Source: Sphingobium sp.
GTDB lineage: Bacteria; Pseudomonadota; Alphaproteobacteria; Sphingomonadales; Sphingomonadaceae
Assembly (NCBI GenBank): GCA_017744605.1
Contig: JAGIAZ010000003.1
Location: 1 to 64,000 of the forward strand
Direction: 5' to 3'
DNA: 64,000 nucleotides
Position numbers and translations under genes: made by a program. Shown piece by piece: positions 54,991 through 60,335 of this stretch (the first letter of the stretch is position 1; each line of letters opens with the position of its first letter). The notes beneath the pieces were generated by a model that saw only the letters and a list, made by a program, of their open reading frames with translations, was not told the origin of the DNA and searched no databases.

Positions 54991-55030
54991 GCCCTCTCAC
55001 CCTTCAGGGGGAGAGGGTTGGGAGAGGGGG
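54991..55030. repeat. Left inverted repeat of DUF559 element 1
   Basis: 40 bp rich in C/G with an internal hairpin (CCCTCTC...GAGAGGG). It is the reverse complement of 55384-55424, differing by one inserted C and about two substitutions. The DUF559 ATG (55032) follows after 1 bp. It lies only 25 bp upstream of the divergent carB start. Confidence 0.9.
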
Positions 55031-55031
55031 A

Positions 55032-55412
55032 ATGACGCAACGCCATCCGGAAACGCGAGCGAGAGCGAAGCAACTCCGCGCCGATATGACTTCGCCAGAG
55101 CGCGTTCTTTGGAGCGCTATTCGCGCCGGTCAACTTGGCGTCAAATTCCAGCGACAGGTCGTTCTCGCGCCCTATATCGCCGATTTCGCGGCGCGCTCGG
55201 AAAAGCTCGTGATCGAAATCGACGGTGAAACTCATGCCAAACAAGGTGCCAAAGATGCTGCCAGAACGGAGATTCTTGAAGCACGGGGCTATCGCGTACT
55301 GCGCTTCTCGAACAGTGAGATCATGACCAATCTCGAAGGCGTGATGCGCATCATCCTGATCGCGCTCGGCCGAGAGTCGAAGCCCCCCCTCTCCCCAACC
55401 CTCTCCCCCTAA
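55032..55412 (+). CDS. DUF559 (Vsr/PD-(D/E)XK-like) endonuclease-domain protein, element 1
   Basis: 126 residues from ATG 55032 (MTQRHPET). DUF559 landmarks: ARQLR-type N-terminus with SPERVLWSAIR, FQRQVVLAPYIADFA, the ExDG nuclease core VIEIDGETH, and the C-terminal RGYRVLRFSNSEI... EGV. The D..ExD pattern is consistent with a PD-(D/E)XK/very-short-patch-repair-like fold. The last residues, PPLSPTLSP, and the TAA stop are encoded by the right inverted repeat. It lies on the plus strand inside a minus-strand carA-rraB-carB cluster. A DUF559 paralog with the same layout is at 58035. Confidence 0.88.
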   Translation: MTQRHPETRARAKQLRADMTSPERVLWSAIRAGQLGVKFQRQVVLAPYIADFAARSEKLVIEIDGETHAKQGAKDAARTEILEARGYRVLRFSNSEIMTNLEGVMRIILIALGRESKPPLSPTLSP

Positions 55413-55424
55413 AGGGTGAGAGGG
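55384..55424. repeat. Right inverted repeat of DUF559 element 1
   Basis: 41 bp, inverse of 54991-55030 with one extra C and one base change. The change turns CTGAAGG into CTAAAGG and creates the TAA stop of the DUF559 reading frame, so the repeat also serves as the 3' end of the gene. Confidence 0.9.
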
Positions 55425-57511: not shown

Positions 57512-57967
57512 ATGGCGATTCGCGATGGGATCAAAGCTGCTCAGATCGAGTCGATGAAGAGCGGCGACAAAGGCCGTCTGGCGGCGGTCCGCCTTATCCT
57601 CGCCAAGCTCAAGGACCGCGACATCGAACTGCGCACGGCGACGCAGGTGCCGGAGGACGACACGATCGTCGTCGAGGTCCTCCAGAAGATGGTGAAGCAG
57701 CGCCGCGAATCGATCGCCATGTACGAGCAGGGCAATCGCCCCGAACTGGCCGCCCAGGAACAGGCCGAGATCGCCGTGATCGAGAGCTTCCTGCCCCAGC
57801 AGCTGAGCGACGCCGAAACGAGCGCCGCGATCGAGGCGATCAAGGCCGAACTCGGCGCGAGCGGTCTCAAGGACATGGGCCGCGTCATGGCCACCCTCAA
57901 GGAGCGCCACGGCACCGTGCTCGACATGAGCAAGGCGAGCGCGATGGTGAAGGCGGCGCTGGGGTGA
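57512..57967 (+). CDS. GatB/YqeY domain-containing protein
   Basis: 151 residues from ATG 57512 (MAIRDGIKAAQIESMKSGDK), with AAGGA about 8 bp upstream; an ATG at 57476 is less likely. The YqeY pattern includes KSGDKGRLAAVRLILAKLKDRDIE, MVKQRRESIAMYEQGNRPELAAQE and IESFLPQQLSD. The family resembles the tail domain of GatB and may bind tRNA or amino-acyl groups. It usually precedes dnaG; here a DUF559 element separates the two. Confidence 0.93.
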   Translation: MAIRDGIKAAQIESMKSGDKGRLAAVRLILAKLKDRDIELRTATQVPEDDTIVVEVLQKMVKQRRESIAMYEQGNRPELAAQEQAEIAVIESFLPQQLSDAETSAAIEAIKAELGASGLKDMGRVMATLKERHGTVLDMSKASAMVKAALG

Positions 57968-57992: not shown

Positions 57993-57997
57993 CGCCT

Positions 57998-58034
57998 ACT
58001 CCCCTCCCGCTGGCGGGAGGGGTCGGGGGAGGGC
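57998..58034. repeat. Left inverted repeat of DUF559 element 2
   Basis: 37 bp of C/G-rich sequence containing its own hairpin CCCCTCCCGC-TG-GCGGGAGGGG. It is the reverse complement of 58374-58410 with two mismatches (35 of 37). The DUF559 start codon follows immediately (58035). Confidence 0.9.
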
Positions 58035-58433
58035 ATGAACTGGCCCAACCGCCGTTACACTGACCTCGCGCGTAATCTACGCAATAATGCGACCGATGCC
58101 GAGCGCGTGCTCTGGAATGCCTTGAGCAACCGAAAGGTCGGCGGAGTCCGCTTCAATCGACAGGTCTGCGTCGGACCGTATGTGTGTGATTTCGTAGCTC
58201 GGACGCCGCGCCTCATCGTGGAGGTCGACGGCGGACAGCACGCCATAAATGGCGGCGACGCAGAGCGCACGGCCCGGCTGGAGAGCCAGGGCTATCGGAT
58301 GTTGCGCTTCTGGAATCACGATGTGCTGACCAATGTCGAAGGCGTTGTCGCAGAAGTTGCTAACGCGCTTAGGGCCCTCCCCCAACCCCTCCCGCCAGCG
58401 GGAGGGGAGCCGAACATGCGGGAGGTGGTATAA
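58035..58433 (+). CDS. DUF559 (Vsr/PD-(D/E)XK-like) endonuclease-domain protein, element 2
   Basis: 132 residues from ATG 58035 (MNWPNRRY). Aligned with the element 1 protein it keeps LR-x-xATDAERVLWNAL, FNRQVCVGPYVCDFVA, the ExD core VEVDGGQH, and LESQGYRMLRFWNHDV... EGVV. Identity appears moderate, so the two are paralogs rather than recent copies. The C-terminal residues LPQPLPPAGGE are encoded by the right inverted repeat; the frame then reads through to a TAA exactly adjoining the dnaG ATG. It sits between yqeY and dnaG. Confidence 0.88.
   Translation: MNWPNRRYTDLARNLRNNATDAERVLWNALSNRKVGGVRFNRQVCVGPYVCDFVARTPRLIVEVDGGQHAINGGDAERTARLESQGYRMLRFWNHDVLTNVEGVVAEVANALRALPQPLPPAGGEPNMREVV
58374..58410. 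repeat. Right inverted repeat of DUF559 element 2
   Basis: 37 bp inverse of 57998-58034 with two mismatches. It lies within the 3' end of the DUF559 reading frame and only 24 bp before dnaG; the dnaG ribosome-binding site GGAGG (58421-58425) follows just after it. Confidence 0.9.
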
Positions 58434-60335
58434 ATGTCCTTGTCTCCGCAATGGCTGGACGAGCTCCGCGCGCGCACGTCGTTGTCGACGCTGATCGGCA
58501 AGACCATCAAGGTCGTCAGGGCCGGGCGCGAGTACAAGGCGTGCTGTCCCTTCCATAACGAGAAGACGCCCAGCTTCACGATCAACGACGAGAAGGGCTT
58601 CTACCATTGCTTCGGCTGCGGCGCGCATGGCGATGCGATCCGCTGGATGACCGACCAGCGCGGCCTGCCTTTCATGGACGCGATCAAGGAACTGGCGGCC
58701 AGCGCCGGCATGGACGTGCCCGCACCCGATCCGCGCGCCGCCAGGCGCGCCGAAAAAGCGCAGTCGCTGCATGATGTGACTGCGGCCGCGCAGGACTGGT
58801 TCGTCGAGCAGTTCGCCGGCATCGAGGGCGCGGAGGCACGGGCCTACATCGCCAGGCGCGGGATCAGCGCCAAGACGCAGGCGGCTTTCGGCATCGGCTT
58901 CTCGCCCGACAGCAGGACCAAGCTCAAGACGGCGCTTGGCACGGGCCCAAGGGCCTTCCCCGAGGAGATGAGCATCGAGGCCGGCATGCTCATCCAGCCG
59001 GAGGACGGGAAGCGCGAGAGCTATGATCGCTTCCGCGGGCGCCTGATGATCCCGATCCGCGACCAGCGCGGACGCGTCATCGCTTTCGGCGGCCGCATCC
59101 TGGGCCAGGGCGAGCCCAAATATCTGAACTCGCCCGAGACGCCGATCTTCGACAAGGGGCGCACGCTCTACAATCTCGACAAGGCGGCGCCCGCCGCGCG
59201 CAAGTCCGGCAGGATCGTGGTGGTCGAGGGCTATATGGACGCGATTGCCATTTCCCAGGCCGGCATCGCCGAAGTCGTCGCTCCGCTCGGCACGGCGCTC
59301 ACCGAAGCGCAGATCGAGAAGCTCTGGACGATGGTGGAAACACCGGTGCTCTGCTTCGACGGCGATGCGGCCGGCCAGCGCGCCGCGCTGCGCGCCGCCC
59401 ATCGCGCGCTTCCCCTGCTCCGCCCCGGCCACAGCCTAGGTTTTGCGACGCTGCCCACCGGCCAGGATCCGGACGATCTCATTCGCGCATCCGGCGTGAA
59501 AGCCTTCGAGGCGGTGATCGAAGCCGCGATCCCGCTCATCGACCTGCTCTGGCGCACCGAGCATGCCGCCGCGCCCCTCTCGACGCCCGAGCAGCGCGCG
59601 GGCTTCAAGCAGCGCCTGAAGGCCCTGACCGACCAGGTCACCGACGGCGACATCCGCGCTCACTATGTCCGGCAGTTCCGCGAGCGGCATGACGAACTCT
59701 TCTTCGGCACACCCAATGCGCCGGAACGACGTTCCTTTGGGGCCCAAGCCGCTCGGCAGGGCGGACGCGGCACGATGAAAAACGGGCGCTGGATCGCCCC
59801 GCCGCCTCCCCCGACCGACGATGCGCGCGCGATCAGCGCCGGCAGTGGCGACATATTGCTTTTGCGTGCAGTTCTCGCCGGCCTGCTGCGCTTTCCGGGC
59901 GAGATTCTCGTGCATCGCGAATCGCTTGCCGGGCTCGAACCCGCCGATCGCGGTCTTGCCCGCTTGCTCGATGCGCTGCTTGAAGCCGCCGACCGCGAAG
60001 AAACGGTTGAAACAAAGCGCCTCCTTACCATATTGGGCGATAGTGACGTGTATAATATGGCGAAGGGGTTGCTCCGGGCCGATGCGTTGCATTTCACGTT
60101 CACTGGGGACGAGGCGGACAGACGGCGCGCGCAGCGCGACCTGGCGGAAGCGATCGCAGTGATAGTGGCAATGCCGAGGATCGAGGCGGAGCTGGCGGCA
60201 GTAACGAGGACCATGGCAGAGGAACAGGACGATGCGGCCTTCGGGGCGGCATTCGCCCGACAGCAGACTCTGCTCAAGCTGAAGGCCGATCTCGCGGCAC
60301 GAACGGCGGAACTGGCGCAACCCCAGGACGATTGA
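58434..60335 (+). CDS. dnaG: DNA primase
   Basis: 633 residues. The CHCC zinc finger ([12 protein letters not shown] ... [13 protein letters not shown]) lies at about residues 38-66. The catalytic TOPRIM core has [15 protein letters not shown] (Glu) and [15 protein letters not shown] (Asp-x-Asp). The C-terminal helicase-binding domain follows a variable linker. It makes replication primers. GGAGG lies 8 bp before the ATG, which directly follows the TAA of the DUF559 gene. Confidence 0.98.

Follow-up and report, generated by a model that had tools for sequence, protein, structure and literature searches.

To our knowledge, REPIN–RAYT is the only partnership of a domesticated enzyme with dispersed palindromes that has been studied well. 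Two further points of comparison for the present locus are structure 3r3p, which we take to be an EDxHD homing endonuclease, and the palindromes of S. chlorophenolicum and S. wittichii, both presumably sphingomonads. For the RAYTs of E. coli, one study reports that the repeats are commoner where the enzyme is present (PMC8049555). CGTC-tagged REPs of Alphaproteobacteria, which occur in S. chlorophenolicum and S. wittichii, are mostly head-to-head dimers according to a 2013 survey; its authors state that these REPs are apparently without a dedicated transposase, and a whole palindrome superfamily appears there without an enzyme (PMC3733652). DUF559 is still listed in Pfam as a domain of unknown function. 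In the open-licence literature we found no description of DUF559 with inverted or palindromic repeats or with transposition (an earlier description elsewhere is possible) and nothing on REPIN/RAYT in Sphingomonas.

Here we describe two DUF559 nuclease genes with inverted hairpin repeats in a 64,000-nucleotide stretch of Sphingobium sp. DNA (the window), and follow one of them, element 2, through related genomes. Like RAYT–REPIN systems and REPtrons, element 2 has an enzyme gene with palindromic repeats of its own type on either side, and these repeats also form dispersed inverted doublets that are commoner where the enzyme is present; its nuclease clade (clade D) is single-copy and apparently vertically inherited. 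Unlike those systems, the enzyme is a DUF559 (Vsr-like) protein and not a Y1 HUH transposase, there is by eye no GTAG tag at the 5′ foot of the stem, the G-rich tail repeats the 3′ strand of the stem, and copy number is low. Head-to-head palindrome pairs are shared with the CGTC REPs, but the CGTC end, A/T first pairs and CCA tail given in the survey do not fit the element-2 arms, and here a nuclease gene is attached. A possible likeness to Vsr-like/EDxHD homing endonucleases lies in a profile match of DUF559 to 3r3p; the differences are that no intron is involved, that the gene sits between inverted hairpin repeats in intergenic DNA, and that short gene-less pairs exist.

Two DUF559 genes in the window carry inverted hairpin arms

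Element 2 spans positions 57999-58409 of the window (Table 1). An inverted-repeat search gave arms of 36 nt with 35/36 positions matching (97% complementary), 339 nt apart, the same feature that an earlier note on this DNA had described as 37-bp inverted repeats with 35 of 37 matching. The arm consists of a 10-bp palindrome, CCCCTCCCGC/GCGGGAGGGG, with two loop bases (a folding program opens the innermost stem pair), followed by the tail TCGGGGGAGGGC, in agreement with the design of a 10-bp hairpin and a G-rich tail that the note had proposed. Its remark that start codon and repeat end abut was also accurate, as the nuclease ATG (58035) directly follows the last base of the left arm (58034). 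The gene was further said to lie between the arms, which holds for the left side; on the right, the arm forms part of the 3′-terminal coding sequence, encoding ...LPQPLPPAGGE..., and the stop codon (58431-58433) is beyond the arm and directly before the dnaG ATG (58434). In each window element the start codon comes right after the G-rich tail, which occupies the Shine-Dalgarno position.

Table 1. Positions of the two DUF559 elements and their neighbours in the window
Feature	Position	Strand	Remarks
Left arm, element 1	54992..55030	+	G-type repeat
DUF559 nuclease gene, element 1	55032..55412	+	126 aa, G clade, between carB and carA
Right arm, element 1	55385..55424	-	inverted
GatB/YqeY-domain gene	57512..57967	+	left neighbour of shared insertion site
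Left arm, element 2	57999..58034	+	10-bp hairpin followed by G-rich tail with four G-tracts; D-type repeat
DUF559 (PF04480) Vsr-like nuclease gene, element 2	58035..58433	+	132 aa, D clade
Right arm, element 2	58374..58409	-	same repeat inverted, overlaps 3′ end of DUF559 ORF
dnaG (DNA primase)	58434..60335	+	right neighbour of shared insertion site

Element 1, about 3 kb from element 2, follows the same plan with a different repeat: its arms (54992-55022 and 55394-55424) match at 97% and extend to 39-40 nt with one gap, and its gene starts at the ATG at 55032, so the reported sharing of architecture with divergence of repeat is borne out. The neighbouring carB and carA were named by reading of the ORFs. 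In the site clustering, element 1 was grouped (cluster S04) with DUF559 elements of different clades (L005, L007, L009, L014, L027, L037 and L039).

The order carA, GatB/YqeY, DUF559, dnaG is common to the window and a Sphingomonas parapaucimobilis record, which makes a Sphingomonas-like host likely. The window comes from genome G000, whose 3.37 Mb assembly consists of 86 contigs and has a completeness of 80.8% and a contamination of 5.3%; contig C17 carries a third DUF559 match of this genome. At 57996-57999 a CTAC, which reads GTAG on the opposite strand and lies 3′ of the palindrome there, abuts the element-2 left arm; by eye, it is absent at the right arm and at the arm start of the other D elements printed. 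No T-run was seen by eye in the flanks of either element-2 arm, short T-runs lie outside some K and F arms, and a plain terminator function of the arms is not favoured.

The encoded protein belongs to the DUF559 nuclease family

The element-2 protein matched Pfam DUF559 with an E-value of 2.8e-36 (124.1 bits; curated cut-off 20.6), and the Pfam matches were confined to DUF559 and MTES_1575. NCBIfam PRK09767 matched below its cut-off, and the Vsr model matched element 1 only, at 17.1 bits against a cut-off of 97.85. When a 59-sequence profile was compared with the PDB, it found 3hrl, an 'Endonuclease-Like Protein' (E 3.8e-34), and 3r3p, a 'Mobile intron protein' (E 3.5e-4). Ten columns were invariant (W27, F40, R42, Q43, D52, E63, D65, R78, G86 and R91). 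The nucleases are under purifying selection, with a median dN/dS over the domain of 0.11-0.27 in nine clades. In PADLOC, element 1 had two weak matches and element 2 had none.

Inverted arms are a general feature of DUF559 genes

A PF04480 profile search of 80 relatives gave matches in 53. Across genomes G000-G048, 153 PF04480 matches were counted and 140 domain rows were analysed, two of which are fragments of one gene (L334); L331-L333 and L335 were left out of the element analysis. Arms were scored as present when an inverted pair scoring 18 or more lay within 200 bp of the gene, and control ORFs were picked mechanically from the same loci (ATG to stop, at least 120 codons, more than 450 bp from a DUF559 domain). 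Arm pairs were found at 129/140 DUF559 hits in these genomes versus 3/119 control ORFs. The best inverted pair lay above the best of 134 shuffles for 122 of 134 DUF559 hits, one of the 134 being a spurious low-scoring domain. In a second control, in which the upstream region of one gene was set against the downstream region of another, 38/134 also passed, as is expected because elements share repeats. Chance inverted repeats are rejected by the shuffles and by the control ORFs, which firmly supports the earlier view that the arrangement is not accidental: the inverted-arm arrangement around DUF559 genes is real and general.

Beyond these relatives, DUF559 matches occurred in 46/150 genomes of a phylum-wide sample, and 23 of the 29 loci fetched from it had arm pairs scoring at least 18 (the pair at L269 is not hairpin-like). 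We also took 29 named loci, of which one was cut off; arms were present at 18 of the 28 assessable loci, including Deinococcus, Azospirillum and Sinorhizobium, and absent at 10, including E. coli, three Pseudomonas, Hoeflea, two Microvirga and a Bacteroidetes genome. A similar hairpin repeat lies upstream of the Neisseria gonorrhoeae DUF559 homologue (L393) and recurs downstream in direct orientation (1370-1403 and 1983-2017), with an inverted match further downstream. The 'plasmid' records L392 (E. coli, 4.9 Mb) and L393 (2.17 Mb) are chromosome-sized and probably mislabelled. In the D element L072 a further insert, bounded by inverted ends of its own (CGATTTGGG..CCCAAATCG), splits the right arm.

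Repeat type largely follows nuclease clade

The arms sort into about a dozen types, and the nuclease clades in a protein tree largely agree with arm type, with a mild circularity in that the repeat types were known when the clade lists were assigned. Typing by regular expressions left 40/133 elements without a type on both sides, so the protein tree was used to define the clades. Site clusters were formed by single-linkage, and 109 of the 124 arm-bearing elements had a proper site label and entered an across-site test, in which pairs came from different sites and different genomes. Arm similarity was 0.633 within clades (148 pairs: G 49, A1 32, C 25, H 25, F 11 and B 6) and 0.310 between clades (5169 pairs). 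The matrix correlation was 0.159, a value reached in 0/500 permutations (maximum 0.119). A correlation between nuclease subfamily and repeat across genomes, on which the earlier note had made its proposal depend, was therefore found. The nearest protein relative at another site fell in the top tenth of arm similarity for 43/109 elements, against about 11 expected by chance.

Location rather than clade might have decided the repeat. This was rejected, since arms at the same site had a similarity of 0.818 within a clade (332 pairs) and 0.41 between clades (106 pairs, chiefly D with Ep and K). Repeat type is statistically specific to enzyme type, with two exceptions: A-type arms are shared by clades A1 and A2 and by one locus placed nearest G, and clade D has a single site and thus no across-site comparison. 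As all D-clade genes lie at that one site, in all 13 genomes typed, the agreement of D arms with D genes could be linkage. Clades Ep, K and A2 are likewise each at one site, in contrast to C, with 8 site labels, and H, with at least 7. D and E arms have a common hairpin and different tails. Within genomes, 2/214 pairs of DUF559 domains exceeded 80% identity, so recent self-copying is rare.

Two arm types keep their hairpins through compensatory changes

For covariation, 16 distinct B-type arms were picked from 26 and 19 distinct A-type arms from 33; MAFFT misplaces the first hairpin of A-type arms, and their second hairpin alone was counted. In B-type arms, 98.8% of pair cells were standard and 25 cells were two-sided, against a shuffle mean of 7.1 (0/500 as high). 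The A-type second hairpin had 94.7% standard pairs and 24 two-sided cells, against a mean of 8.5 (0/500 as high), and both two-sided counts were far above every slid version. Counts of pairs with two-sided changes, the measure least prone to relatedness, gave a weaker signal, with 5 versus 3.3 for B (29/500 as high) and 4 versus 3.4 for A (207/500). These two related arm types keep their hairpins by compensatory changes; D arms vary too little for such a comparison.

The second hairpins of A and B arms close with C-GNA-G loops in 45/59 arms. Such loops are unusually stable in DNA hairpins, so a single-stranded DNA form would be favoured, and RNA is possible too. On the strand that runs from hairpin to tail, a motif of four G-tracts was present in 146/162 single-hairpin arms (C, D, E, Ep, F, G, H, K and L), against about 2.9 expected from single-base shuffles, which are a weak control because they break G-runs. 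The same motif occurred in 4/84 arms of types A, B, I and J.

Gene-less copies are dispersed as head-to-head pairs

The hairpin common to D and E, with at most one mismatch, was found in 28/31 same-genus genomes and 0/19 others of the order (control 0). The exact D motif occurred at 114 sites in 30 of 61 same-genus genomes, with a maximum of 12 in one genome and none for the reversed pattern. All close exact-motif D pairs (25/25) were head-to-head, 21-42 nt apart, and this dispersal of the element-2 repeat extends the likeness to RAYTs and REP sequences that the earlier note had drawn. Eight longer exact D pairs were gene-sized. For 48/114 D sites an exact-motif partner was absent, and several of the printed examples have a diverged partner. 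The window genome has one D pair; it lies on contig C19, immediately upstream of a reading frame whose beginning, as read from the sequence, resembles that of a biotin carboxylase. Among the F matches tabulated, 13/17 short head-to-head pairs were exactly 68 nt apart and 11/11 gene-sized pairs exactly 400 apart. Two further close F pairs among the matches listed were tail-out (-+) and lay beside nuclease genes. The reversed-pattern control was 0 for D, C, A and F; for G it was uninformative, as the reversed pattern matches in many of the same genomes.

The purM–purN junction, inspected by eye at 30 loci (L336-L365), held a palindrome pair in 26 of the 29 gaps that could be delimited; 7 pairs were of D type, 19 were of an unrelated CCGTTCG type, and 3 gaps had neither. 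In D-type pairs (L177, L178, L183, L191 and others) the end is often a GGGGAG lying a few bases upstream of a start codon, placed as if this were the ribosome-binding site of the downstream gene.

Dispersed copies of some repeat types accompany the cognate nuclease

Repeat copies per genome were compared between genomes with and without the cognate clade in 49 genomes, with the arms at fetched nuclease loci subtracted. The means for F were 6.8 and 1.1 (16 and 33 genomes; p 7e-7). Corresponding values were 3.5 and 0.9 for D (13 and 36; p 6e-5), 2.0 and 0.2 for C (8 and 41; p 0.03) and 0.6 and 0.2 for G (13 and 36; p 0.009), and there was no association for A (0.4 and 0.4; 19 and 30; p 0.6). F, D, C and G were then corrected with a DnaG tree of 48 genomes. 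The F association persisted at the best-fit lambda of 0 (p 9.7e-9) and at lambda 1 (p 1.5e-6), that of D had p 3.2e-5 at its best-fit lambda of 0 and was marginal at lambda 1 (p 0.087), C gave p 0.026 at lambda 0 and 0.007 at lambda 1, and that of G was gone (p 0.24 and 0.23). A trans association was accordingly not supported for the A and G types. Dispersed copies go with the cognate nuclease clearly for F, moderately for D and weakly for C.

Among the 50 cells of repeat type by nuclease clade, tested without correction, most off-diagonal cells were not significant; the exceptions were D repeats with A (p 0.002), H (0.01) and F (0.02) nucleases, and G nucleases with either C (0.008) or A repeats (0.04). 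Dispersed D repeats were present in 11 of the 36 genomes without a D nuclease, and F repeats in 16 of the 33 without an F nuclease. The proposal that each nuclease has its own cognate repeat thus stands in part. It is upheld by arms that track clade across sites and by the trans association of F, D and C; it does not carry over to the A-type arms shared by two clades, the hairpin shared by D and E, the nearest relatives outside the top tenth, or the dispersed G and A repeats.

RAYT-driven repeats were considered as a general cause and rejected. The RAYT family (PF01797) matched in 17/61 genomes, with no match in 22/30 D-carrying genomes or in the window genome, an 81%-complete assembly, and the five repeat motifs were absent from the 4 RAYT loci examined among 20 listed matches.

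The yqeY–dnaG gap is occupied by different nucleases

The dnaG locus was found in 60 of 61 genomes searched. By best tblastn hit, the yqeY–dnaG gap holds a DUF559 gene in 26/60 (14 D, 6 K, 4 Ep and 2 nearest F). A GIY-YIG nuclease occupies it in 16/60 (L224, L225, L242, L243, L252 and others), an assignment that rests on a Pfam PF01541 match for one protein (E 5.5e-16) and on tblastn with that protein for the rest. In 9/60 the gap is shorter than 120 bp and has neither nuclease, and in the last 9/60 it has other contents, among which we read G086 and G080 as shortened D elements and G082 and G022 as shortened GIY-YIG elements. Between occupied and empty gaps, which included no closely related pair, no target-site duplication was seen by eye.

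A proposed nuclease-run partnership and its alternatives

We lean towards the view that element 2 belongs to a REPIN-like family as the member that carries the enzyme, in a partnership like that of RAYT and REPIN but run by an unrelated Vsr-like nuclease. From the arrangement described above we infer steps of binding, cutting, mobilisation and autoregulation. The DUF559 protein would most likely recognise the folded form of its own repeat, hairpin plus G-rich tail, and would cut or nick at the repeat ends; repair or copying may then, on occasion, give rise at another place to a gene-less head-to-head copy of the two-arm unit. The gene of clade D would itself rarely move, being single-copy, at one site and kept by selection, and would act in trans on the small pairs, and other clades (C and H) would also change site. 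In the window, the G-rich tail in the Shine-Dalgarno position may allow the repeat to control its own enzyme. The present data show no excision product or recent insertion.

The nuclease could instead act in a homing-like manner, cutting unoccupied intergenic sites into which the element is copied by break repair, with the dispersed pairs being internal-deletion derivatives and not units mobilised in trans. The match to the mobile-intron nuclease 3r3p fits this, as does the yqeY–dnaG site, where DUF559 genes of four clades alternate with GIY-YIG genes, empty gaps and the two gaps read as shortened D elements; yet we think it rather unlikely, because by itself it leaves unexplained both the exact 68-nt F pairs in several genomes and clade-specific arms with conserved folding, and D pairs lie at many different places. 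About as improbable, in our judgement, is that nothing here is mobile and DUF559 is a retained repair or defence nuclease, its arms regulating expression or serving as chromosomal processing sites. Purifying selection, the fixed D site, the tail in the Shine-Dalgarno position, the excess of four-G-tract motifs in single-hairpin arms and the weak, below-cut-off similarity of element 1 to Vsr would all suit a nuclease that serves its host. Such a role does not account for the same arms occurring as symmetric pairs away from any listed nuclease, a 5′ regulator needs no right arm, and the sparse PADLOC matches also count against this reading.

The palindromes might also be passive neighbours, spread abundantly by another enzyme and flanking nuclease genes by accident. 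They are common at gene junctions, as the purM–purN gaps illustrate with a pair from one of two superfamilies in nearly every case, and the A-type repeat goes with two nuclease clades. Set against this are the contrast between DUF559 hits and control ORFs, arms that follow clade, an F dispersal that follows the F nuclease after tree correction, and the lack of a RAYT-family match in the window genome, and we regard an accidental association as very unlikely.

A possible second nuclease–palindrome family

Inverted repeats of their own, CGTTCGTTTCGAGC... (CGTTCGTTTCGAGCG..GTCGAGAAACG), are present at the GIY-YIG loci printed, and GIY-YIG nucleases with their palindromes are possibly a second nuclease–palindrome family. 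Extending the partnership that we favour for element 2, we tentatively entertain a wider, distinctly less certain reading: DUF559 and GIY-YIG, two unrelated single-domain folds, might be dedicated enzymes of REPIN-like families in bacteria without a matching RAYT, in competition with each other for a few intergenic sites next to core genes. Each would recognise a folded single strand of its own repeat, which for DUF559 would be a hairpin switchable with a four-G-tract form. If true, both would be candidate partners for palindrome families thought to be without a transposase. A second, unrelated nuclease family with type-specific, dispersed palindromes would give DUF559 a testable job, and would suggest that partnerships between enzymes and palindromes arose more than once. 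In several of the GIY-YIG loci, hairpins of the CCCCTCCC type also lie outside the GIY-YIG inverted repeats.
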